In this document: piece by piece, positions 3,111 to 45,662 of the stretch
How positions within the stretch are numbered: position 1 is the stretch's first letter
How the letters are laid out: every line of letters begins with the position of its first letter
NCBI GenBank assembly: GCA_964035545.1
Contig: OZ037772.1
Coordinates: forward strand, 4,871,733-4,935,732
Source of the DNA: Bugula neritina
Lineage: Eukaryota > Bryozoa > Gymnolaemata > Cheilostomatida > Bugulidae
Reading direction: 5' to 3'
Length of the DNA stretch: 64,000 nt
Position numbers and translations under genes: made by a program
Notes under the pieces: model-generated
Databases searched by the model: none
Told to the model about the DNA's origin: nothing
What the model saw: the letters and a program-made list of their open reading frames with translations, nothing else

Positions 3111-5061
3111 GAAATACACTTCACAACCCACAAAGCAAGCAGATGAAAGTAAAATGCAATGTTCAAACCAAAATAAAAATAGCACTGTATGCAATAATTT
3201 TTCCATAAACACATCACAAACACTCATGTCTATGACTCTTCCTGTCTGGGTTTCTTCTGTCAAAGATCCACACACAAAAGTATTAACATATGCCAATCTT
3301 GACTCAGGCAGCGACTCATGTTATATAACCAATTCTATTGTTGAACAACTCACATGCATCAAAAAACCAACTAAACTGCCAATGGCAGCAATGACACACC
3401 AAAACTTTGAGCTAGATACAATGGTAACCGATGACCTAATCATCAAAGGATATAGCTGCAATAAGGAGGTGAAACTTCCTAATGTGTATTCTGCAGAAGA
3501 AATACCTGCCAAGTATGAGTCTATTCCACAGGCGGGTGCTCTTACCACCTGGCCACATTTACGAGACTTATCAGAAAACATGGTCAAAGGACAAAAAATC
3601 TCAGTAGGTCTACTCATTGGAGGCAATTGCCCATTAGCCTTCAAACCTAGAGAGGTACTAGTGGGAAACGACGCAGACGATGAACCATTTGGCGTACGTA
3701 CTGACCTAGGGTGGGTTATCATGGGTAGTCTAGCTACAAATAACACACATGATGACAATTCAGGCAAGAAAACAACAATAGTCAATAAAACCGTAACTCA
3801 ATCACTCAAGAAAGCTAAAACCACAGTATCTTTCAAATGTCAAACTGAAACATCAAAACAAATAACCAAAATAATAAATATATTAGCTCAAGATTTCAAG
3901 GAATGTGTAACAGACAAAAAAGCGGCTTCTGTAGAAGACCGAGCATTTTTGTCTCTCATGAAACAAGAAACAAAGATTATTGATGGTCATGTCACCATGC
4001 CTTTACCTTTCAAACACAAACCACCGCAAAATAACAGTTTTAAAACAGCAAAAAATCGATGCAATTCACTACTAAAAAAGTTTTCTAAGAACCAAAACTT
4101 GAAAAACCAGTACACAGAGTTCATGAAAGACCCCATTAGCAAGGGTGAGGCTGAAATTGTTCCACAAGACGTAGCTAGCCATGAGGACAACACATGGTGC
4201 ATACCACATTTCGAAGTATGGCATCCAAAGAAGCCAGACAAGATTAGAGTAGTTTTCGATGGTGCTGCAAAGACAGATGGAAAGTGCATAAACGACTATC
4301 TCATGACAGGTCCAGATCATCTTAACAGTCTCACTGGTATTCTCCTTCGCTTCCACCAGGAACAGATTGCTGTTACATGTGATATTGAGCGAATGTTTCA
4401 CCAATTTCGTGTTGCAACGGAAGATACAGATTATCTCCGATTTTTCTGGCTAGATGAACGTGGTGAAATAGCAGTGTTCTGCATGAAAGTGCATGTGTTT
4501 GGAGCGACCTCATCTCCTGCATGTGCAACATATGGCCTACGTTATCTGGCTGACCAATACAGCACAGATGATCCATCAAGTCAACAAGCTCGAAACTTCG
4601 TTAGAAATCAGTTCTATGTGGATGATGGCTTACTTAGTATGCCTGACGCAACATCTGCAACAAAAGTACTTACTGAGGCAATGGGAATTTGCCAACAAGG
4701 TAAAGTACACTTGCACAAGAGTCTTTCTAACGAGAAAGAAGTATTAAATTAATTCCCCAAATCTGAACAATTGGCAACTCTGCATGATCTTGACCTAAAC
4801 TCTGACTGTCTTCCAACTGAAAGAACTTTGGGATTGATGTGGAATTCTGAGCAAGATTCCTTTCGGTTTCAAGTTAATCTCGCTGATAAGCCCAACACTA
4901 GACGAGGTTTGCTCTCAAATGTAGCCTCGGTCTTTGATCCACTTGGTCTCATATCACCGGTTGTACTGCAAGGTAAAATGGTTCTCCATGATCTTTGCAG
5001 AAAACATTTGGACTGGGATGATCCTTTAGATGAAGGCATGCTGGCAAAATGGTTGCCATAG
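3058..5061 (+). pseudogene. BEL/Pao pol: aspartic protease and RT
   Basis: The pol segment with a retropepsin-like aspartic protease and reverse transcriptase. The protease active site is LDSGSDSCYI (codons from about 3298). A linker follows, then RT: FDGAAKTDGKCINDYL in the fingers, CDIERMFHQFRV around the first catalytic Asp, and the active site YVDD at 4615-4626. The frame is the same as the zinc-knuckle segment. A TAA at 4750-4752 interrupts RT just before the FPKSEQLATL region, and a TAG at 5059-5061 follows the connection domain (GLLSNVASVFDPLGLISPVV). The key RT residues are intact, so the lesions are nonsense changes only. Confidence 0.85.
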
Positions 5062-7138
5062 AAACAAGGCCTCAAAGTTCTTGAACACCTATCAATTCCT
5101 AGAAACTACATACCATCATCATTTGGAACACCTGCTAAGGTGGAGGTCCATACCTTTAGCTAAGCGAGTACAATGGGCTACGGCCAATGCTCCTACTTGC
5201 AATTTGTAAGCCCAGGCAAACATGTGCATGTTGCTTTAATCTGTAGCAAAGGTCGTGTCACTCCGCTCAAAGCTATTACTGTTCCTAGATTGGAACTTCA
5301 AGCAGCACGTGGGGCTGTAGATTTAAGCCTCAAGGCTGCAGAAGAGCTAGGTATGGACCATGTAGCTCAGTACTTTTATTCTGACTCAGAAGTAGTTCTT
5401 GGTTATATAAAGCACACACAGGCTAGATATCACACATTTGTTGCAAATCGAGTTCAGCAAATCCGTGACAGCTCCAATGCCGACAACTGGTTTCATGTCT
5501 CGACTAAACTCAACCCTGCATATCATGCATCACAAGGGTTATCACCAAAGCAAATTTTCTCTCCTGAGTGCAATTGGTTCACAGGACCAGACTTCTTGTG
5601 GAATGAACTTCTTATACTCCCTCATCAGAAAAAGTTCACCAACTCACATGACGAACAAGAAGTGAAAGTTTCATTAGCCACTCAACACATCTTTGCTCCT
5701 CTTAGTCAGCGTATAACCATTTTCTCTGACCTAGATTACACTCTTAAGGTTATCGCTAGAATCCAAACAGCACTATGCAAAACCCCTCTCACTCAGCAGG
5801 AGAAACGCCAAAAAGCGTTACACTCTTTGGTCAAGTCAGTTCAATCAGAATTTTTCACTCCAGAAATCAAGCAACTCCAACAAACTCAGACTACATCCAA
5901 GCATAGCTCCATTGCAAAACTATACCCATTTCTAAATAAGACGGGTCTGCTCAGGGTGGGAGGAAGGCTACAAAACAGTAAATTGCTATCATTCGAAGAT
6001 AAACATCCTTTACTCTTACCTAAGCATAGTCATTTCACTACGCTTATCATAAATGACACACATGCTAAACTAGGACACCTTGGCTTAGAGTATACCCTGT
6101 CTAAAATAAGATCACAGGGATTTTGGATCATCGGTGGTAAATCCACAATTTCATCAAAGTTACGTCTCTGTGTAACATGGAAAAGAATCAAAGCTAAACC
6201 CTTGACACCACAACTGGCAACATTACCATCAGTGAGAGTTAACGAAGCCCCTCCTTTCACCCACTGTGGATTATATTGTTTCGGCCCTTTTATTGTCAAG
6301 GACGGTAGAAAAGAATCGAAACGATATGGCTTGATAGTCACATGTATGGCTTCACGAGCTGTTCACATTGAACTTTTAGAGGACATGACTACTGACAGCT
6401 TTATAAACGCTATCAGGACTGTGGTAGCCATCAGGGGTCCAATTCAGACAATTCAATCAGACCAAGGTACCAACTTCATTGGTGATGCGAGTCTTCTACA
6501 AAGTGATGGGACCGACAGCAAACTTAAATCTATGAACATCACAATGAATTTCAACCCTCCTCACTCTAGCAATTTTGGAGGAGTGTGGGAAAGGCAGATA
6601 AGGATTATCCGTTCTGTGCTACAGGGCCTTGGAACAAGACATGGTGGGAGGCTCTCTACCTCTTTGCTACAAACTTTGTTTTATGGAGTGATGGCCATCA
6701 TAAACTGTCGACCATTAACCTCAACAACTGATGACATGCCTCTAATCACCCCAAACATGTTGTTGACTATGAAGTCTGACGTTGTTCTACCACCTCCAAG
6801 CACATTTGAGGAGGCAGACATATATGCGAGGAAGCGTTGGAGAGTGGTCCAGCAGTTGGCAAATGAATTTTGGACAAGCAATACTTGCTTTATTTACAGT
6901 CGCGGCAAAATGGGTAAATAAAGTACCAGAGATCAGGGTGGGGGATATCGTTATATTGTGTGACAACAATGCAGTAAGAAATCAGTGGCCTTTAGCACAT
7001 GTTGTAGAATGCAACCTGTCTTATGACAGCGTTGTTAGATTAGTTAAGGTGCTTGTTGTTAGTAAAACATACCCCAAAGACTCCAATAAAAGAGTCTATT
7101 TAACTCGACCAATATCAAAATTAGTTGTACTAGTCTGA
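5062..7138 (+). pseudogene. BEL/Pao pol: RNase H and integrase
   Basis: RNase H, integrase and the C-terminal DUF5641-like domain. A TAA at 5161-5163 replaces the Asp codon expected in the first RNase H motif (F-S-x-A-S context). The zinc-binding region shows HAKLGHLGLEYTLSKIRSQGFWI but ends CVTW (codon 6178-6180), where the family has CxxC. In the integrase core the first catalytic Asp (GxDxFGP in the family) reads GLYCFGP with Tyr at 6274-6276; the second Asp (IQSDQGTNF) and the Glu (GGVWERQIR) remain. A one-base frameshift around 6900-6920 moves the tail (VGDIVILCDNNAVRNQWPLA) into another frame, ending at 7138. The copy could not integrate by itself. Confidence 0.85.
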
Positions 7139-8284: not shown

Positions 8285-8425
8285 CATGTCTAATCTGAAG
8301 AATCTAGAGGCTCTTCATACGCGAGAGAATAACTTCAGTGAAGGATTACCTGATGTAGTCACTTCAATGACATCTCTAAGGATGTTGGATATGCATATCT
8401 GTGAACTACCAACTCTACCTGAGAG
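8285..8425 (+). CDS. LRR exon of the Roco gene
   Basis: An exon of 141 bp coding two leucine-rich repeats of about 23 residues (MSNLKNLEALHTRENNFSEG and LRMLDMHICELPTLPES). The acceptor is ...TTTACTATAG at 8284, and the donor GTTAGT starts at 8426. It starts and ends in phase 2, so the last codon is completed by the first base of the exon at 12463, producing a normal LRR junction (LPES followed by LQYLEELQYLN). Symmetric phase-2 LRR exons allow whole-repeat exon duplication. No further LRR exon was found between the BEL element and this point. Confidence 0.72.
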
Positions 8426-11400
8426 GTTAGTGAGAATGCATTAAATAAAGTGTGCATTAGTGTGAAGGATATAGTTCTGCAATAGAAGTACTTATTTGTT
8501 TATTAAAATTATATACAGTTTTTAAAGTTCTACAGTTTTACATTTGTTCTGCATTTCTTAAGTGCAGTATATTAGGTTCACAGTAGAATCACAAGTACCA
8601 ACTTTGTTACATACTTCCCATTGAAAATCAACCAACAGCTTGCCAGCTGACGCACTAACTATTACACTACAAGGGTAATCCTAACACTCCATGCAACCAG
8701 TTATTCTAAACTCTGCTTGTCCCCTTACTACTCATTCAGTTTAGGCTTCCTGGGCCTCTCAACTCTCTTGGCGTACTACCAAAATGCTATACTAAATGTG
8801 AAAGAGCTTGCTAACAATTACACATGGGTCACTGGGTAATCTCAATACCCCACTAAGCTGTTCACATGTGCATTCAGCTCCCTGCTACCATAAAGCTATT
8901 CATGTGCACTAACCGTCATGATGTATAAGTTTCAATCACAGGTTGTAATTCTACACGCTCTTACTTTCAAATGGAAGGACATCACAATTACTAGACATCA
9001 AATTATTATAAGCACATTACAGGGAGCCTCAATGAAATAAAATATTAGAATATAATTATATCATCGTTATTTATGCAGTTATGTGTTGCAAGAAAACCTA
9101 ATCTTTATGATGGTTAGAGAGTAAACAGTTATACAGGATTTATCAAATTGCATTTCATTGGTTTGTAACACATGAACATTTATATAGTATAATGGCTGTA
9201 CACAGTTGTAACTTTTGACTGAGAAATTTAAAGAAAGTTGCTTTTTTGAGGCCGCAGATATTTCTGCAAATTAATAGACATCAAATAAATATGAACTAAG
9301 TATATGCAGCCTTTCGTGAAATAAATTACAAAAAAATATAATCATTTTTATTATTATCATTATTATCATAGTAGGTCAGGTCACATAGAATGCCTGCTAC
9401 CGGATAACCATGAAAACCGGTACAACCTGTTTCATGGGTCGAGTGGTCAGCGACTAAACTGACAAGTGGGTTAGACTGGACATCCTTAGGTCTGTAGTGT
9501 GGGGGGGGAGGGTGGCTACGCCTGTCATTGTGAGGTGACACATACTCCCAGAAGAGCAGGGGTTAACATACCTATCTCTTGGTCAGTCCCTGCCGATTGT
9601 GGGTTTTTGATCATGCAAAAGCCAGTAGTACCTTAATTCCTTTGCAAGCAGTTTTCATGAAGTGGTCTGTCAATAGCACATTCATGCCGGCTCGGACATC
9701 GCTTGGAAGAACAAGGTCGGCACCAATCTGTTCTCACTCCGGCAGTAAGCAAAAAGTGTGCTAGGAGTAGGAAGAAAAAAAGGAAGAGATGTTCCTTTAT
9801 ATGTAAAAGAATGGAATGTACAAGCACTAATAGATTGATCACAATCCCAGAGTTCAGAGAGACAGACTGCTTTTATAGCCATAGAGATAGAGAGTTATGG
9901 CATCGATGTGGCTACACTTAGTGAAATAATTTTGTCAGGCTATAATAGCTTAGTAGATGATGGGTATACTTTCTACTGGAGTGGATAGTCAGCTGATAAA
10001 AGAAGAGAAGCAGAGATAGAATTTGTCATCAAAAACGAGGTTGCTCTTCACCTTGGGTGAAGGACCAACTCCTATAAAATATCGAATCTTGACAATGAGG
10101 CTTCCTCTTCAAAGGAGATTTCACGCGACTTTTATTAGTGTATATACTTCTACTACGACAAATACTGAAGGACTAAATAAACAGTTTAACAATGATCTGA
10201 GAGACAAGATCAATTTTGTTCTAGTTAATAATGAATTGATACTGATTGATGATTTTATTGCAAAGATAGGCTCAGTTTCTGAGAAATGGAAAGGAGTACT
10301 TTGTAGTCATTTTGTAAGTAAGTGCAATGGAAATAGAGAATTTCTTCTAGCTTTCTGTTTAGAGTACAGTCTTGTGATAACTAATACCATCTTTAAACAC
10401 AAGGAATCACACAAGATTACATAAATAGAAGAGATGCAGATCTGTTTGATGTTACTCATTTTAAGTCTATAACTAAAACTACTACGGAGTTGGTGAAAAA
10501 CTTGCTAATTGCCGGTGATAGTGCTTTAATTGTTTATCATTCTGATGATATACAGACTCCAGTTAACAGTTTTTCTCATTCTGCAAAAGATTGTAGCTTT
10601 AAAATTTACATGAAAAAGAGAGAACGCCTTTATCAGCCTCCAAAATTTCAAAGTGCAACATGTCAGCCAAACCGTATAGCCATCAAATGAAAACCTTTGA
10701 AAAGGTGTCAGACATTTAAGTACCTTAGAAGAACAGAAGCTGTAGACGCTAAACTAAATAATGAAAGTTTCTTGAGAATAGGAAGTGCTAGTGCAGTGCA
10801 TGTAAAGTTGAGCACAAGACTTTGAACTTATTGTAATGTTTAAATCAAAATCAAGTGTCAGGTGTATAGTGCTACGGTATGCGTTGCCTTACTCCATGGT
10901 GCTGAAACCTGGAACATATACAGTGTGCAAGCAGACGGACTGCAAACATATTTAATTCGACATCTCCACTCAATTATGGGTATCTTTTGAAGGGACAAGA
11001 ATACTAACAAATAATTACTGAACAGAGCTAGTTTATCATCGCTAAAATCTATCCTCATGTATATAAATTTGAGACAGCCAGGAGATCTTGAGAGGGTAGA
11101 TCATAGTCACTTACTTGGACAACTTTTTTATTTGCAGCTGAAAAAAAGTAAGCAAAACCAAGGAAGGCTCCGATTGAAATTTAAAACTACTCTAAAGTGA
11201 AATATTAAAAAGATAGACATGGTCAGAGATAACTGGCAAAAGATGGCTGAATGTAGAAAAGGATGGAAATGTTTGATTAAACCAAATTGAAAACAGCCAT
11301 TGTCGCACCGAAAAACTGCTATGATGATGATTCTCCTTGTTATTGTTCACAGGATAGTTAAGGGCATCCTCACTAAGAATATCATAAATTTCTCTCAAAA

Positions 11401-14400
11401 TGTAGTTTAGGTTCTTGAATAATATTGCTCTGCGTGTGGCATGAGTGTTGCCTACTTGCAATTGTTTAGTCTAAGATCAAACTACATTAGCAAACTACAA
11501 GCAACCTTCATTAGGGCTGCGTTATCTATTAACATTCCATTATAGGCGCTACATAAACAAGGTACAAAACAAGCTATTCATTGTAGCCTGTCGGCTAGCA
11601 AGCCTGTAATTAGCATGTACGCGCCAATATCTTCTCATCCCTACGTGCTCATTGAAGCGTGAAGCACTGCGCGCTGCTAATTTACTATGAAAAAATATGG
11701 TATTTTCAGTGTATAAATCACCAATTTATAGACAATCTAGAAGAGTTATTTGAAAAAGAAAAAAACTTACCCTGGAGAAATATCTCAGGATTCCAGCAGT
11801 GCAATTTTTTATTCAGATATCATGTTTTGCTGCAGAAATATTTTACTGGTACTGAAAAGTCAGCTTTTCAGGCAAAATTTGCCAAAATTGGGCAGTTTTT
11901 TGTCTATAACTTTGCAAAAAAAATGAAAATTGAAATTTCCAAAAAAAGTTGCACTGGGGAAAAACAAGATCTACAACATAGTTTTTAAATTTTGACTCTA
12001 GCACAATTAGGTGAGATTTCATTTTACTGGTACTGAATTCTTATATGATTACAATGCAAACCTCAGCAAGGCAGTTGCAGCTAAAAGGTTGCCCTTAACT
12101 ATCCTGTGTTGTTATTTTACCATAATAAAAAAATTGACATTTGATTTTTTTATTAGAAAACAGTTGGGTTTCATTTATCAAATCATATTTCGTAATATTT
12201 TGTTGCATTTAGTTTACTTATAAGTGATGCAGAAACATTTCTACAGTAAAGAAGTTGTGTAGAGTTGAATTTTTTTAAACTACGTCTTTGAGAAAAGGTG
12301 CCTGTCATAAATTTACAGACATTTTTTAAATGTATTACAGTTTGAAATAAGTCTGGGGTTGAGATTGTGGGATACTTCTGAACATCTTTGAAAGCTATCT
12401 ACAAAAGCAATATATTAGCTAGATTCAGACTTATTATATATCCTATTTTGTCTGGATTACAGTTTGCAGTATTTGGAGGAACTACAATATCTGAATATTA
12501 TACGAAACAAAATCACTACAATTCCAGAGGCTGTCTGCAACTTGGAGAAATTAGACACACTACAAGTTTATGGATGCAAAGCTCTAACCACTCCGCCTTA
12601 TGAAGTCTGTATACAAGGATTATCAGCTATCAGACAGTACTACAGAGATCTTGCTAAAGGTAAAGGTGAAAGTCTTCCCCTAGTCACCATTGCTGTGATC
12701 GGTCACACAATGGCAAAGAAAACGAGTCTCATTAGAACATTGCAGAGTGAAGAGAGAAAGCGAGTGCTGACAAATCGTGGACCTGAGGTTGCCGTTGACG
12801 AAACAACTAAAGTCTTTAAAGTCGAAGAGTTGGAAGTAAATAATACAGTTTTGAGACTAATTGACATGGGAGGACAACCAGTGTATCACATGACATACCA
12901 GCTAACACTTAAACAAAACTGCATGCCGATAGTAGTGGTGAACATGGCGCACTATGATCAGCTGGCACAAGAAAAGGGAGAAAGAGAGGCTGTGAGAAGA
13001 CTGGCTTTTGATTGGCTGGCTCATTTATACGTGGCAAATCCTGGAATTGGGCAACCAAAACTGGTGTTCACTCACAAAGACAAATTTGATCAGGAAAAAT
13101 TCATAAAACTGACTGTTAATTTCACCAACACAGCCAATCTACTGAAAGATGAAATTATCAGAGAAGAGAAACAACTTGACCAAAGTATAGCAGAGATAGA
13201 ACATTTCCATCAACACAAAGAGCTGTTCCTGCGTGAGGATATCTACTCAGTAGGGAAAGAAGATAATTATGAAGTTTTTGAGAATATGAAATTTGCCATC
13301 TTCGATTCAGCTCAAAACTTTGTAAAAGTGTTGCCAAAGCTGTGGGAAGATGTGAATGGGAAGGTTTTAGGATTGCAAACAGCATTCAGTACATTTGATG
13401 AGATACTTTATGCAGTGCAGCAAGTAGATAGAAGTATCACACCTGATCACCTCACCACAATCCTCACCTACATGCATGATTGTGGTAAAGTCTTGTGGTA
13501 CAAGAATATTGAGGAGTTGAACCAGATTATTTTTCACAAAATTGAGGAAGTCACCAAACTACTCACAGTGTTGTTTCATCACGATGAAGATGTGTGGCAG
13601 ACTCGGCGAACAAGTTTCAAACCACAGCTTTTGACTAACGGAGCTTTTCTTGAGGAAGAACAGTTTGAGAAACTTGTAGGAGATTTCTTGTCAGCGGGAA
13701 TCATGGGAAGCCAACTTTTAGAATATTTACTCAAAGCTGAGACAGCATTCTTTGATGCAAAAGCATATCAACTTGCTGCCATTTTGTTACAGAAATTCAG
13801 CATACTTTACGGACCAATTGATCTGGAATCGAGGAGCTGTTTTATTGTACCCTTCCACTCTCCTGATTACCTAGAGAACACTCTCAGCACTGATCAAGAC
13901 GTCATTCTCCATGCTGAGATCATGTTCAAAGGTCTCTCAATCCCACAATATGTCTACCAACAAATGAGTGTTGTTGTTTTGAAGCTGTTCTCAGATGAGA
14001 CAAGTGCTCCCCTTGTTAAAAAAAATGGTGTAAAGGTTTTTCACGATGATGTCTCTGTGCGTCTTGTCTATGATGGCCTCTCAAGGAAGGCAGATGTTAC
14101 AGTGTCTGGAGCAGCAGAAAGAGTCACAGACTGTTGGGAGCACATGGTCAGCATAACCAGGAACATCTCCAATGAAATTCGCAGTTCATGGCCTGCCAGC
14201 AGAATGGTCCATAAGTCTAGTTGTACACACTGCATACTGAAAGGTGAATCAAGTCCTAAAGTTCAGGTAACTCCCAGCTGGTGTCATGACTTTCAAACTG
14301 AGAAAGCTTATGAGCAGTTCCAGAAGAAGATGGTGACAGTTATCTGCGGAGAAGATAAGATCCCAAGCCCATTCATGCACCCGTGTAAGTTGGTAATAAA

Positions 14401-17308
14401 ATAGTGCTGTGACTTGAAAACTGAAAATATCTAAATTTAGATATTATTATGTTGAATTTTCTTAGTTAGCTAAATGCATTTTAGTTTTCTAAATAAGTCA
14501 AGGTAACTAAAAGTATGCATATGTTTTATGAGCTTTGTCTATTTATAATAATAATAATTATAAAATTAGATGCAGCCACTATTTTTGTTAACAAGATAAG
14601 CATTATCCATCATTCACTAATAAAACTTGAGATTTAATTGTAGGTAAACCTTTGACTGAGTCTAACCTAAAGGAACTGAAGGCAATACTGAAAAAGTTAA
14701 AGATGCAGCAGAAGTATTGGAAGAAAGAGAAAGATGAATCAGGTATATTATACACTCAAGACTTGAGTGTTCTGCAGTTGTGTCTCCTTGAAGATCAAGA
14801 AAGGAAGTGTTGTGTTAAACAGACAGATAAAGTGTAATATGTTACAGAGACAAGCGAGCCCACACTCACTACATCTATAACTCCTCTCCTACGACCAGCA
14901 GTACAGCAGACTGTGACAGACGGAGAGAGTGACCTCTCTGATGATGATGACTACATGGAACCTGCTGATGACCTCGAGAGACAACTGGTATCTCTCAGAC
15001 AGGCAGTTCTACCAACTACTAGGAAGGACATTCGGAGATTATTCTACAACACAGATAAAGTGGGACATCACAATATCTTCTCAATAGTACTCTGGTTATC
15101 TTATATGGCTACGATTTTACACTAGCAACACACTATACATTAACTTTGACAAACAATATTCAGATATTCCAAGTTAAAGTTTTTATATAATTATGTTTTA
15201 ATAAAGGGAGTGGGATATATGTTTACGGAATCACATTAAGCACCATTTCTTTGTATAATAATGCCAAAACTATGCTACAGTAAATTCGTACCCAGGCCAT
15301 GTTCATTCAAAATCACGTAATATATTAGCTATTCCATAGTTTGAAACACAGTTTCTAATATATTATAAGCCAGTTTAACTAACTTAATACTTTCTATGTG
15401 TTTGTTTCATTTGAGTTTCACTTCAAGTTCTACAGAAACATTGCAATTATCAAAATATTTTACACAAACAACTAAATAGATCAAGTGTTTACGTAACTTA
15501 GATTTCATTTTTAATAACTGCAGGTGTTTTCAATGACAAAGAAACGAGGAAGAGCTCTGATAATCAACAACAGAGAGTTTCCCAATTGCCAGAAAAGACT
15601 TGGCTCTGATGTTGATGTCGGAAATCTAAAAGAAATGTTAGAAACATTTAAATTTACAACAGAAGTGCTTGAGAACATCAGTTCTGAGGTATTAAAGCTT
15701 ATGTATATAACAAAACAGTTTTTATGGGCAAAACTGTAGTGTTCCTGTCAACAGCTAGTACAAAAAGAATATTGGATAGATGCTTTTCATTCTAGCAGCC
15801 CTATATTTTTGCATACTTCTTTGATAATTAGCTTCATGTGACCCAATTCTACGATGCAGCAAGTTACATAAATTCACTGCATACTTGAAATGAGGGTAAA
15901 CTAAAAGTTCACTTTAGTTCCAACTTTCAGAGAGAATTAAATCTGTTGTAGGACGTGTTGCATGTGATAAAGAATGAGGTTGGAAACAGACATCATGCTG
16001 AGTCTGGAGTATTCTGGTTGGCTATTCTAAGTCATGGAACTAAGGCTAATCACATCTATGGCTCTGATGGTGTTCTGGTTAACCTAAAGGATGTGTATGA
16101 TCTTCTTTCACCAATTAACTTTCCTCTAATGGCTGAGAAGCCAAAAGTAGTCGTGATTCAAGCTTGTAGTGGAAGTGAGTATCACACAATATCAATAACT
16201 GCTTGCCTCTATAGCACCTTATTACTATAATAAGCTCATCTGAAGGCTTTTGACCAAATCATAAACGTGTAACTATATTCAGTACTGTTCATCTTCAATA
16301 CATTTGCTAGATAGAGTAGATGGAGGCGAGAAAGGAATCTTTCCAGCCAATCAGATTGATAATACAGTTACTGACCAACATTTGGTAGTCAAGGCTGTCA
16401 GATCAGCAGCAGGAGAACCTTTGGGAGGAGACAAATTAGAGAAACTCAACTGTGACAATCTGTTAATATTAAAGTCCAGCTTTGAATGTAAGTAAATAGC
16501 ATAATATTCCTTCTCTGAACATTACAAAACTATTTCTGCATATAACAATAAAAAACATAATTTATTTGTACTGTTTTCTAAAATAAGAATGAATCAGGTC
16601 TCTACCAGATTCAGGAAAATTAGAAAATGAAGATAAGATTTGAAAGTAGAAAAACAAAATAATATTATGGCTCTATGATATATTGACAGTCTCAAAAATA
16701 CTTTGTTTTTTAGTCACAAATTTAACTTACAGTCAAATATTAGCAACATAATAGTTTATGCTGAAAAGGCATTTGCCCTTCATTTCCGAATAAAATATTA
16801 TATTTTTAAGACTTCTATTGCAGCATTTGTGTCTAAACGTCACCCTGTTTACGGATCTCTAGCAATCAGATGTCTGGTTCAAACTATGTACAGACACGCA
16901 TGTCACAGAGATGTCTATGAAATATTTAGGATTGTAAGTATATATCCAAAAAAACAGCATGTGTGGATATTTAGTGCATATGTGAACATACATCTGATAA
17001 ATTTGATTACTTGCTTGGCTATTACCAATTCTTATAATTATCTGCAGGTACAGCACAGAGTGAGAAAATTTTGCATTCAGAGAAATCTTGAAAATGGTCA
17101 GACAGTGATTGCTATAGATACTCTGACACATCTGAGAAAGCTCTACCTGTTTCCTGGATACAATGGCTCTACAAGGAGTTCTGAGCAATCAAGTAACACG
17201 AGACAACAAGTAGAGAGAGAAGCAAAGTCAAGTAACACGAGACAACAAGTAGAGAGAAAATCAGACTCAAGTAACACAAGACAACAAGTAGAGAGAGAAA
17301 CAGAGTGA
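8285..17308 (+). CDS. LRR-Roc-COR-caspase protein (predicted spliced gene)
   Basis: A predicted multi-exon gene joining a Roco signalling GTPase to a caspase. Exons: 8285-8425, 12463-14384, 14644-14742, 14848-15059, 15524-15688, 15952-16174, 16311-16487, 16824-16933 and 17048-17308. All junctions use GT and AG and the phases agree (2, 1, 1, 0, 0, 1, 1, 0), giving 1102 codons and a stop with no internal nonsense. Earlier LRR exons must lie upstream of the window. The order is LRRs, Roc, COR, an acidic linker, caspase p20 with catalytic His and Cys, p10, then 13-residue repeats. Roco proteins are scaffold GTPases and caspases are Cys proteases of cell death or immunity; a role in regulated death or innate immunity is inference. 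The weakest link is the donor at 15060 (GTGGGA). If it is not used, these are two adjacent genes. The P-loop Gly is replaced by Lys. Confidence 0.6.
8629..8700 (-). repeat. Possible tRNA-derived SINE head
   Basis: On the minus strand a stretch resembles a tRNA gene half: an A-box-like TAGTGTAATAG followed by a weak B-box-like GGTTGATTTTC. No cloverleaf can be closed with confidence, and the tail and target duplication were not identified. Confidence 0.3.
9377..11290 (+). pseudogene. Degenerate non-LTR retrotransposon (LINE)
   Basis: A decayed plus-strand LINE of the endonuclease-RT type common in invertebrate genomes. Translation in shifting frames shows an endonuclease remnant (GDFNAR-like DDFIAKIGSVSEKWKGVL, then FLLAFCLEYSLVITNTIFKH), an RT palm remnant (NLLIAGDSALIVYHSDDIQ, where the FADD motif has become AGDS) and a C-terminal part (TFKYLRR, LHGAETWNIYS, IRHLHSIMGI, ending near MVRDNWQKMAECRKGWK). 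Many stops and frameshifts. The first ~180 bases (9377-9560) are probably its 5' untranslated region. Confidence 0.75.
11363..11622 (-). repeat. Partial copy of foldback element
   Basis: This stretch (GGCATCCTCACTAAGAATATC... to ...AAGCCTGTAATTAGCATGTA) matches, with many differences, the reverse complement of the right three-quarters of the foldback element at 52290-52771. It shares the outer arm from GGCATCCTCA, the CATTCCATTAT core and the AAGCTATTCATT...CAAGCCTGTAATTA part. The outermost arm and the opposite arm are missing, so it is a truncated member of the same family. Confidence 0.7.
12463..14384 (+). CDS. Roc-COR exon of the Roco gene
   Basis: A single large exon (1922 bp) with the last LRRs, the Roc GTPase and the COR domain. 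After ITTIPEAVCNLEKLDTLQV the Roc domain begins at VTIAVIGHTMAKKTSLI. The Walker A motif GxxxxGK[ST] is altered: Lys (AAG, 12716-12718) stands where the last Gly should be. Switch II reads DMGGQPVYH and the G4 motif is THKDK, the form usual in Roco proteins. COR follows, through about AETAFFDAKAYQLAAILLQ and a C-terminal beta-rich part. The acceptor is GGATTACAG at 12462 and the donor GTAAGT at 14385. The altered P-loop suggests weak or absent nucleotide binding, but the rest of the fold looks well kept, so this is probably a functional gene and not a decayed one. Confidence 0.85.
14644..15059 (+). CDS. Linker exons between COR and caspase
   Basis: Two small exons, 14644-14742 and 14848-15059, split by a 105-bp intron (GTATAT...TTACAG). 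The first encodes a Lys-rich helix (LKELKAILKKLKMQQKYWKK). The second encodes a Thr/Pro stretch, an acidic patch (GESDLSDDDDYMEPADD) and a basic end (TRKDIRRLFYNTDK). Read as one exon the region would contain a TAA at 14835-14837; both splice sites are phase 1 and remove it. The final donor is GTGGGA at 15060, in phase 0, matching the phase-0 caspase exon at 15524. No known domain was recognised; it may be a flexible linker containing processing sites. Confidence 0.55.
15524..17308 (+). CDS. Caspase module 1 (p20 and p10)
   Basis: A C14 caspase-type protease domain across five exons (15524-15688, 15952-16174, 16311-16487, 16824-16933, 17048-17308). The p20 part starts VFSMTKKRGRALIINNREF. The catalytic His is in ILSHG (codon 16033-16035) and the catalytic Cys in IQACSG (codon 16165-16167), both intact. 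The p10 part reads YGSLAIRCLVQTMYRHACHRD and ends KLYLFPGY. The region between QACSG and p10 (about 60 residues) has no obvious Asp cleavage site that can be assigned with confidence. The C-terminus is a repeated SNTRQQVEREAES motif cut by a TGA at 17306. All exon phases match module 2 at 30 kb. Confidence 0.85.
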
Positions 17309-17773
17309 AGTCACATGAGACAACAAGTAGAGAGAGAAGCAGAATCAAGTAACATGAGACAACAAGTAGAGAGAGAAGCAGAGTCAAGTAACACCAGACA
17401 AGTAGAGAGAGAAGCAGAATCAAGTAACACGAGACAACAAGTGGAGAGAGAAGCAGAATCAAGTAACACGAGACAACAAGTAGAGAGAGAAGCAGAGTCA
17501 AGTAACATGGGACAACAAGTAGAGAGAGAAGTAGAGTCAAGTAACATGAGACAACAAGTAAAGAGAGAATCAGAGTCAAGTAACATGACACAACAAGTGG
17601 AGAGAGAAGCAAAGTCAATTAACACAAGACAACAAGTAGAGAGAAAAGCAGAGTCAAGTAACACGAGACAACAAGTAGAGAGAATAGCAGAGTCAAGTAA
17701 CCCGAGACAACAAGTAGGGAGAGAAGCAGAATCAAGTAACATGAGACAACAAGTAGAGAGAGAAGCAGAGTCA
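17192..17773 (+). repeat. 39-bp coding minisatellite, 15 units
   Basis: Fifteen tandem units of 39 bp encoding 13 residues of the type SNTRQQVEREAES, continuous with the caspase reading frame. One unit lacks 3 bp (Gln codon, near 17399). Unit 3 ends in TGA at 17306-17308 where the others have TCA, so translation would stop after three units, yet the following twelve units stay in frame to TAA at 17786-17788. The unit is charged and likely helical or disordered. Copy number is likely polymorphic between individuals. Antisense open frames over this stretch are artefacts of the repeat. Confidence 0.92.
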
Positions 17774-18593
17774 AAAGTTAAACAGTAATCCAGAATAGAG
17801 TAGGGATAGCAAGCAAGCAAAATACCAAAAGTTTGAGCGATGTTAAATTTTACAGATTGAATTACATGCCTCAGTTAACTTCTTTACTCATCCAAGAACT
17901 TTGAGTGGTTACACGTCGTATTATTGTTATTGTTCCTTCTACTCTCTAAAGGTTGATTGAACTATTAGTCAACCTGAGTTTATTTCTAAAATTACGTGTA
18001 ATGTATTATATGTTACGTATTATTTAAATATTGTAATATTTTAATTTGGGCAACTCGATTTGGCGTTAATTTAAGATTTTACTTGACATAATCAGATGAC
18101 CTGGTTTGATGTTGCCCTCACTATTAACTGAAGAATAGAAGATGTTTGTTACACATCCTTATATAATGCTAAGCTTATATATATACATTAGTAGCAAATG
18201 TAATAATTTAACCATTATAGTTTACTGACATTTCATGCTATGCAATGACAATATTTACCATATTTTAAGCTAATAATATAATATTATTATGTGTGTAGTT
18301 CATCAACCTTAGTTTTACACTAATTCCAATGTACTTGTGATTACAATAAAGGCAATAATTATCATTAGTATGAAGACATTTTTAACTTTCAATTGGTTGA
18401 TCCCTATCATAAGCATGCAGCATAAATAAAATAGAAATTATGCCCTGACAAGATAACGGCCTAAATATTAAAAAAAAGTGAAACGGTATTTATGAAGTTG
18501 TGACAATATATAAAATGATCAATTTCTTCATTCTTGTGATGTGATTGGCCCATGGCATTCAATTATTGAAAACAGCTCCATGCACTTAAATAA
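17774..18593. other. 3' flank of caspase gene, no gene seen
   Basis: AT-rich sequence after the minisatellite. AATAAA-type signals occur at about 18346 (CAATAAAGG) and 18424, and could serve as the polyadenylation site of the caspase gene. Nothing else was recognised. Confidence 0.4.
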
Positions 18594-29990: not shown

Positions 29991-31812
29991 GTGTTTAGTA
30001 TGACAATGCCAAGAGGAACCGCTTTGATAATCAACAATAAGAAGATAACCAACTTCCCAGACAGAGAAGGTTCTGAAGTTGATGTTCAAAATCTGAGTGA
30101 CATGCTACAATCCTTTCATTTCAATATTGAGACGAAAACAAATCTCACAGCTGAGGTAACAGTTATGAAAAGTTTTGTTCTTTTCATTGCCTTATTTTCA
30201 GCTATATAATCACAAGTGTTGTTTTAAGCAAATCCCCTCAAATAATATAATCTAAGCTGAATGTAAATGTTCTTACTTTTACTGATTTACAAGTTTAAAG
30301 TTACACTTGCGATTTTCAGTTGCTTTGACGTACTTAAGTATTTGAATCATTTTACAAAAGCTCACAGCATTTACACAAATATGCTTATTATTTCCAATTT
30401 TTATTAAACATACAGGAAATATACCAGACGGTTAAAGCAGAAATTAACAACAGCAGAAATTCTGACCATGGAATGTTCTTCCTGTTTATTGGCTCTCACG
30501 GAGTTGAGAATCATGTCTATGGATCAAATGGAGAGTTGGTGAAACTGACAGACCTTTATGACTTGCTATCCGTGCCTCAGAATCCAGTGGTTGCTGATAA
30601 ACCTAAACTGGTTGTCATCCAAGCTTGCAACACGGGTGAGTTTTTTTCTAAATCGCATCTTACTGTAAGCCCAGGTAGTTCAGCATCAACAAAATTTTTT
30701 CCTAATCAAATGCAATGTATGAATAATTTAGATCTACCTAAATCTGAGAAAGCAGAGCACACTTATGCTGAGACTGCTACACGTTCAGTTTCTGCTGCTA
30801 GTACCAGAGACAGAAGTCTGCTAGAGAGACGCCATGGTGAAAATTTGTATGTTATGAAAGCTAGCTTTCTGTGTGAGTAAAAAAATCTCATTTTTGGTAT
30901 ACTATGCTCTCTGTATATTATATGTATGCTTTACAACTAAACATAAAGCTGTTCCGTCTGTGCTAACTTTTCCACAAATAACCAAAATATTGTGTTCCAG
31001 TTTATGTCAGTTTGTAGAGTAATATTCACATTATTGACTATATATAGCTATTCAAGTACTAAAAGTTCAGCTTTGTTGCATGTTATGTAGCTTATAGTGC
31101 CTGGAGATTTTCTGACTGTGGATCTCTTTTCATCAGATGCTTCGTCAGAACCATGTACCGACATGCCTGTCACAGAGACATGCATGAGATCTACAAAATT
31201 GTGAGTGTGCTACTTTTCATCTGATATAATATAATAACATATAGCTTCTTTCAAAACTTGTTAATGTATTCTGTGTCTCATCTCTTTTGTTTTCATAACG
31301 TGAAAGACCATAGTAATTAAGTGAAAATAACTCAGAAAGGAATAGAAACACTGATTATGTTGACTTCCTCATGCTGAATTTATTTCTAAATTATGTTTCA
31401 ACTTACATTTAAGTCTAAGTAATTTTTTTGGGGTGACATGTTGCATTATTTTATGTAGGTACAAAATTGGGTTAGAAAATTTTGTACAGAGAAAAGACTT
31501 CCTCTTGGACAACTACCAGTTGCTATAGACACTCTGACACACCATAGAAAACTCTACCTGTTTCCAGGATATGATGGAAGTTCTGGTCGAGAGAAGGAGC
31601 TGAGTTTACTTCAACTCAGAAAGATATGTCAACATCCTTCATCCAAGCCGCTTCTGTCCCGTCTAGCTGCACAGTCCACACTGTCAGAGTCAGCTAGCAC
31701 TTCACAGCAGGCAGAGAGTGGGCAAGGCAGCAAATCAAATATCCAGAAGAGAAAATTGGACTTCAGCAAGGATAGCATCCAAATTATAAAACACAAAAAA
31801 TTGAGTGAATAA
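29991..31812 (+). CDS. Caspase module 2
   Basis: A second caspase domain, paralogous to module 1, over exons 29991-30155, 30416-30872, 31091-31200 and 31459-31812 (361 codons, one frame). It starts VFSMTMPRGTALIINNKKI right at the splice acceptor, so it also needs an upstream exon. The catalytic His is in GSHGVENHVYGSNG (30497-30499) and the Cys in IQACNTG (30626-30628), one residue longer than the usual QACxG. The p10 part reads SYSAWRFSDCGSLFIRCF and ends KLYLFPGY. The linker is open for about 80 codons where module 1 has an intron. The tail is Ser/Gln-rich with a basic end (NIQKRKLDFSKDS). No start exon was found between 24 and 29.99 kb; it may be spliced from the Roco gene upstream, be an independent gene with a missed first exon, or be orphaned. 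Confidence 0.8.
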
Positions 31813-43520: not shown

Positions 43521-45318
<1,798 letters not shown>

Positions 45319-45662
45319 GAAAATTTTGAGTATTATAGAAATAATAATATCACTTGAATATTTATATAGTCATGTTGTATAATATATATTATACTATTAT
45401 ATATATAGTCATGTTGGATAGTATATTACAGTATTAAATTATAGTCATATTGTATATATTATATACTCTATTTAGTATAGTATATAACAGTACTATATAG
45501 TTAATGTAAGTGAATCATGCAAGTGTATAATATATTATATGGCATTGTTATATATATAGTCATGCTAGTATATCATGCAAGTGTATTTAAGGTTGGAGTT
45601 TGAACTGTACTCAGCTATAATAAACCACCTGTTATCAGCTAATGTAAACATTACTTAGAATA

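Follow-up and report, generated by a model that had tools for sequence, protein, structure and literature searches.

Whether a Roco-type GTPase and a caspase can be encoded on one polypeptide chain is the question raised by a locus in the genome of the bryozoan Bugula neritina. The locus spans positions 8285..17308 of a 64,000-nucleotide stretch of contig OZ037772.1 (assembly GCA_964035545.1, positions 4,871,733 to 4,935,732 of the forward strand), to which we refer as the window. A first-pass annotation had read it as nine exons in one frame of 1102 codons, leading from leucine-rich repeats (LRRs) through Roc, COR and a linker to a caspase with intact His and Cys. The exon count and frame could be reproduced: all nine exons are open, the introns are of the GT...AG type and the joined frame is of exactly 1102 codons. 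The domain order was borne out by the joined frame, a Pfam domain scan and fold matches, and the LRR-Roc-COR-linker-caspase model at this position is confirmed at the level of genomic sequence.

In the window copy a Roc domain is present and is directly followed by COR. The Pfam matches of COR are weak (17.1 and 18.5 bits, below the cut-offs); AlphaFold fold matches with the Roc-COR fold cover residues 1-640 of exon 2. The intact P-loop motif GxxxxGK[ST] is absent from the window copy only, being found in 20 of 20 other loci, and the placement in the Roco family rests on Roc-COR. The caspase part comprises p20 and p10 with both catalytic residues (Peptidase_C14, 117.6 bits on the model); its SHG and QACSG motifs align to CED-3 and caspase-1, and the match to CED-3 has an E value of 2.8e-21. 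Specificity of caspases for Asp depends on three residues of the S1 pocket, Arg, Gln and Arg. All three are present in the window copy, and many paralogs deviate at the Gln.

No kinase, death-domain, NACHT, CARD or DED match was obtained when the model was scanned with Pfam. Several known systems are close to the model. As presented in the available part of the Roco review PMC6337361, Roc-COR is followed in the different Roco groups by nothing, by a kinase, often plus further domains, or by a death domain. Group 1, represented by MFHAS1 and by CtRoco of Chlorobium tepidum, has the same LRR-Roc-COR order and fold as the model, but ends after COR according to the same portion of that review, whereas the model continues with linker and caspase. 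LRRK1 and LRRK2 (group 2; LRRK2 is the Roco protein of Parkinson's disease) and DAPK1 (group 3), which acts in cell death (PMC6337361, available part), resemble the model in that a catalytic effector accompanies Roc-COR. This effector is a kinase, however, and none follows COR in the model; in DAPK1 the kinase precedes Roc-COR, a death domain comes after it and LRRs are absent, an arrangement not seen within the model, which probably does not reach the true 5' end of the gene. With CED-3, caspase-1 and caspase-6 the model has in common the p20 with His and Cys, the p10 and the S1 residues; it differs from them in having Roc-COR ahead of the caspase and no CARD or DED match. The logic of NLR inflammasomes is comparable (LRR sensor, nucleotide switch, caspase output), but in the model the nucleotide domain is Roc, no NACHT match was found in the Pfam scan, and sensor and protease are located on one chain.

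The join between exons 4 and 5 (15059/15524) had been singled out as the critical point, because of a weak donor at position 15060. That donor is indeed weak (GTGGGA), but comparison with paralogs, with another genus and with known caspases leaves the join well supported. For the analysis of paralogs we used 20 loci of the same genome, picked from 69 Roc-COR matches. Exon 4 was matched in 18 of these 20, each time with a phase-0 GT donor at the same codon. The AG acceptor of exon 5 is located at the homologous codon in 17 of the 20 loci; inspection by eye places it one codon earlier in L018 and L019, and in L028 no match to exon 5 was found within the stretch. Known caspases cross the junction as well, since the alignment to CED-3 begins at residue 61 of the query and that to caspase-6 at 62-63, inside exon 4, the last residue of which is residue 70 (junction 70/71). 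Proteins from Watersipora subatra run unbroken through the homologous junction, and the Met of exon 5 aligns to a mid-chain Met in five Watersipora chains.

COX1 of the genome is 100% identical to that of B. neritina over 511 residues, a result that speaks against a sponge origin, which had been considered at first. The published B. neritina assembly amounts to 216.00 Mb in nine chromosomes, as stated in the available part of PMC11480708, and the genome analyzed here agrees with it (215.8 Mb). When the genome was searched with the Roc-COR exon of the window, 69 matches were obtained, 68 of them with a downstream caspase p20 match on the same strand within 12 kb. A second query added seven loci, and five more were recovered from those 39 of 150 Roc matches of another search that fall in open frames of at least 460 residues, with script-estimated exon ends. 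The total of 81 is a lower bound, because the search scored the best candidates only. A same-strand downstream caspase exon lies within 5 kb of 76 of the 81 Roc-COR exons, within 12 kb of 80 and within 20 kb of all 81, the locus L028 being the one that has its caspase exon between 12 and 20 kb away; upstream, within 5 kb, none of the 81 has a caspase exon. As a control, 64 other Roc matches on contigs C1-C9 were considered (150 Roc matches, minus the 39 of the family and 47 on smaller contigs that were left out; some of the 64 are exons of one gene), and none has a caspase exon within 14 kb downstream. This genome-wide pairing, together with the splice sites of the paralogs, the single chains of Watersipora and the caspase alignments that cross the junction, supports the reading of the locus as a one-chain Roco-caspase gene.

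Many of the Roc-COR exons, which number at least 81, are clustered on C1 and C6. In Roc-COR, the five close copies are each 81-84% identical to the window copy, and 54 of 134 caspase exons in the genome are not the nearest partner of any listed Roc-COR exon. At C1 33884509-33886503 a Roc-COR exon lies inside an open frame of 2363 residues, much longer than those of its relatives. The strongest Roc matches are located on small contigs (e.g., C58, C90 and C99), several of them with stops, and may represent a different Roc group or foreign DNA.

Chains combining Roc, COR and Peptidase_C14 were also found in another species. Among 72 matches, Peptidase_C14 is listed for five named proteins, P0019, P0021, P0022, P0023 and P0026, all from W. 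subatra. A profile built from these five gave 79 listed matches, with P0019 as the one Watersipora protein and no further named Peptidase_C14 protein; the reach of this search is limited, as a single one of its five source proteins was listed. The alignment of P0019 takes in 94% of the model, at 33% identity. Upon rescanning four of the Watersipora proteins, caspase scores of 107.9-127.9 bits and Roc scores of 16.7-26.2 bits were obtained, the latter all below the cut-off of 27. Like the model, the five proteins carry LRRs (except P0026), Roc, COR, an acidic linker and a caspase on one chain; they differ from it in sequence (32-35% identity) and are computational records named uncharacterized or MFHAS1 homolog. 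B. neritina and W. subatra both belong to the cheilostome bryozoans, and the linker and junction that they have in common suggest a fusion older than the split of Bugula and Watersipora.

No prokaryotic precedent for a Roco-caspase protein was present among the non-Watersipora rows listed in the 72- and 79-match searches, which scored only those candidates of similar length that share most words with the query; the many metagenome rows are single open frames, unable to reveal a spliced caspase. The best 50 rows of each of the Foldseek and VIA lists for the Watersipora model, filled by other domains, contain no caspase match. The first-pass annotation knew of no described Roco-caspase protein, and our literature search, with subscription journals mostly outside its scope, agrees in having found no description. 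The word 'caspase' does not occur in the available part of PMC6337361, and no Roco-caspase description was met in the available parts of PMC7159879, PMC8195603, PMC4104024, PMC13326412 and PMC7576161. The architecture is present in database records, under other names, and is described in no paper found.

We favor, with a probability of about 0.62, the reading that the locus is one gene of a bryozoan-expanded family of LRR-Roc-COR-linker-caspase single-chain proteins acting as inflammasome-like or initiator-caspase platforms, by a mechanism that we infer. What the computation shows directly is the domain content, the joining of the exons, a junction that recurs among paralogs and in a second genus, how large the family is, and a low ratio of nonsynonymous to synonymous substitution rates (dN/dS) in both modules. 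In the mechanism proposed, the LRR array, built from exons with lengths that are multiples of three, would recognize a ligand, and Roc-COR would change state and switch assembly, which is nucleotide-dependent in known Roco proteins. The caspase domains, held on a disordered acidic tether, would be brought together and activated by proximity; in the model of P0019 the predicted local distance difference test (pLDDT) value of the COR-caspase tether is below 50 over residues 838-901. Cleavage in the linker joining p20 to p10, and at a conserved D-x-S-D located between COR and the caspase, would then free an active caspase, which would kill the cell or process immune substrates. The motif D[LIS]SD is found in 21 of 24 linkers (from 18 paralogs, the window copy and five chosen Watersipora pieces) and is a plausible candidate release site, bearing in mind that acidic stretches yield such motifs easily. 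Such a protein would be analogous to an inflammasome or initiator-caspase platform, but contained in one chain and independent of a CARD or DED adaptor.

Several points weigh against this reading. The gene model and its splice junctions are predicted from genomic sequence, the Watersipora proteins are database predictions, and ligand, dimerisation, cleavage and cell death are putative elements of the scheme. In the window copy, Roc and COR both score under the Pfam cut-offs, and the P-loop Gly is a Lys (GHTMAKKT), whereas GKT is found in 20 of 20 other loci. An upstream LRR exon (in L029, at -4485 to -4348 in window numbering) shows no GT where the donor is usually located, fragments of a BEL/Pao retrotransposon (window 4753-6921; Peptidase_A17, with integrase below the cut-off) are placed between this exon and exon 1, and the TGA at 17306-17308 interrupts the repeat tail. 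Cys is lost in 11 of the 69 Roc-linked caspase exons, and broken relatives exist: a stop is present in two of the 69 Roc-COR matches (C6:4987132 and C6:3755216) and in exon 8 of L018.

Taking into account its altered P-loop, the window copy may be nucleotide-insensitive or a decaying member, and the coupling of a GTPase to a death protease, as suggested in the first-pass annotation, applies better to the family than to this one copy. It may be that the window copy is weakened and the family sound. The stronger version, in which the family is real and the window copy non-functional or decaying, we consider somewhat unlikely. It draws on a P-loop change seen in this copy alone among 21 loci, on the missing donor, the BEL/Pao element between LRR exons and the TGA mentioned above, and on a nearby second caspase cassette without Roc-COR; set against these are nine open exons with regular introns, and the substitution pattern. 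Between the window copy and L012, dN/dS amounts to 0.27 in Roc-COR and to 0.22 in the caspase; in the eight pairs computed it ranges from 0.16 to 0.32 and from 0.13 to 0.42, respectively, with both modules well under 1. On the window branch, 56 nonsynonymous and 48 synonymous changes were counted in Roc-COR and 15 and 11 in the caspase; the L012 branch has 78 and 62, and 9 and 13. About 3:1 is expected without constraint. From these branch counts the window copy has evolved under constraint, possibly weaker in its caspase part, and its Roc-COR ratio resembles that of its relatives. For exon 4 alone, dN/dS exceeds 1 in two pairs, with few changes, and no positive selection is claimed.

The protein might also be a single chain that serves programmed tissue regression or development rather than immunity or allorecognition. 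Bryozoan colonies regularly degrade their zooid bodies (polypide degeneration), a process that a death protease would suit. We nevertheless hold this to be unlikely: at least 81 loci, often clustered and with phase-compatible LRR exons, would resemble a recognition repertoire more than a developmental executor.

Variation of the protease across the family bears on the idea that the caspase domain is mainly a binding or regulatory module, similar to catalytically dead caspase relatives. His and Cys are kept in 115 of 134 p20 exons; at the position two before Cys, Glu (57 exons) and Gln (55) predominate over His (13), Val (five) and Leu (three), one exon being unaligned. Of the 69 Roc-linked p20 exons, 44 carry Glu at this position, the remainder being divided between Gln (13) and His (12). 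Replacement of Gln by Glu and the 11 Roc-linked exons that lack Cys favor a regulatory module, and the latter mean that proteolysis is not universal in the family. The idea is improbable all the same, as 58 of the 69, the window copy included, keep His and Cys, and all three S1 residues (both Arg and the Gln) are present in the window copy. Judged by eye, the window copy and the 19 paralog loci in which exon 5 is present all keep the first S1 Arg, and the Arg of p10 differs in four of 17 matched loci (L015, L017, L025 and L026). Metacaspases and paracaspases have an acidic residue at the position two before Cys and cut after Arg or Lys, which makes a changed specificity plausible enough to test; the Glu and His variants and the Cys-less exons may represent altered specificity or dead members. 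The proposal that a plain Roco gene and a neighboring prodomain-less caspase gene were duplicated together and only seem joined can draw on the weak donor, an ATG shortly after the start of exon 5, a join predicted from genomic sequence and the absence of a caspase exon within 12 kb in L028, but it is very improbable given that donor and acceptor are kept at the same codon and phase in paralogs, that the Watersipora chains are continuous over the junction with the exon-5 Met internal, that caspase alignments already begin in exon 4 and that L028 does have its caspase exon farther away.

Under the single-chain platform reading, the size and clustering of the family and its phase-compatible LRR exons suggest a repertoire for recognition. 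Such terms have reportedly also been used in discussing the expanded LRR-Roco family of a brown alga. More tentatively, it is possible that cheilostomes evolved a large repertoire (at least 81 loci in the present genome) of one-chain inflammasomes in which both the LRR exons and the caspase cassette are exchangeable around a Roc-COR switch, varied in sensing and, as the S1 pocket is changed in many members (Glu or His for Gln), also in cutting, for immunity or allorecognition. In the available part of PMC4104024, Trichoplax Roco proteins with CARD, death or TIR domains are reported, along with an Ectocarpus LRR-Roco family of 37 genes. These are expanded Roco repertoires like that of Bugula, some with death or immune adaptor domains; those of Trichoplax carry adaptors, however, and not the protease itself, and both organisms belong to other lineages. 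Work on Roco proteins such as LRRK2 asks how a GTPase switch acts on its attached effector, and work on caspases how they are assembled on platforms. A natural Roco-caspase chain makes the conversion of Roco state into protease output directly assayable, and signal sensing and the triggering of cell death could reside in a single molecule. The chain also suggests an independent origin of inflammasome-like logic, in which Roc-COR takes the place of NACHT, and the family size points to an unrecognized immune or self-recognition system in colonial animals.

The features of the window are collected in Table 1. The ATG at 8286 in exon 1 falls within an apparently internal LRR exon with the same acceptor phase as the LRR exons of paralogs, and the homologous LRR exon in L029 lies about 12.8 kb farther upstream. 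Exon 1 of the model is probably not the true gene start. By eye, nine of 11 LRR exons share the start phase, the locus beginning inside the exon in the remaining two, and nine of 11 end at a length of 141 or 144 nt; the two exceptions are the exon upstream of the window and one L012 exon, the end of which was not found. Exon 3 is 81% identical to L012, has no match in most paralog loci and aligns to Watersipora sequence that follows the conserved PC; exon 7 is 93% identical to L012. The tail repeat of 13 residues is encoded by a 39-bp tandem repeat of 15.1 copies (window 17189-17774); L012 has a tail of the same repeat type, shorter than that of the window copy.

Table 1. Features of the Roco-caspase locus and of the neighboring caspase cassette (window coordinates)
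Feature	Position	Strand	Content	Evidence
Exon 1	8285..8425	+	Single LRR exon, 141 nt (multiple of three), AG directly before; probably internal	
Exon 2	12463..14384	+	Last LRRs, Roc (P-loop GHTMAKKT, switch II DMGGQ, G4 THKD), COR	Pfam and AlphaFold fold matches
Exon 3	14644..14742	+	First linker exon, less conserved	
Exon 4	14848..15059	+	Acidic linker ESDLSDDDDYMEP, then IRRLFYNTDK, the first ten residues of the CED-3 alignment	
Exon 5	15524..15688	+	Start of caspase p20: VFSMTKKRGRALIINN, S1-pocket Arg in KRLGSDVD	Peptidase_C14, 39.5 bits
Exon 6	15952..16174	+	p20 with catalytic His (LSHG) and Cys (QACSG)	Peptidase_C14, 42.8 bits
Exon 7	16311..16487	+	p20-p10 intersubunit linker	Splice sites
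Exon 8	16824..16933	+	Caspase p10: SKRHPVYGS with S1-pocket Arg, HACHRD	
Exon 9	17048..17308	+	End of p10 (LYLFPGY), then tail of 13-residue repeats; stop TGA 17306-17308	
Repeat continuation	17309..17788	+	Same frame past the TGA; 13-residue repeat goes on, final KVKQ as in the L012 tail	
Second caspase cassette	29991..31581	+	Homologues of exons 5-9, His and Cys present	

For the second caspase cassette, no Roc-COR exon or linker exon of its own was found nearby. It is 92.6% identical to L009 over 3718 columns, with a dN/dS of 0.21, and may be left over from a tandem gene or serve as an alternative 3' cassette. A swap of caspase cassettes, giving the window gene a Roc-COR like that of L009 and a caspase like that of L012, is possible but not proven: Roc-COR is similarly close to five copies, and the second cassette may be a tandem remnant. 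Elsewhere in the window, the minus strand of 43521-45332 holds an open frame of 603 residues that, by eye, resembles a reverse transcriptase of the long interspersed element (LINE) type. Besides C295, extra COX1 matches were detected in the genome at C17:12213-13505 and C6:11174072-11175412; one has no TGA codons and is perhaps bacterial, and one is chromosomal, perhaps a nuclear mitochondrial copy.

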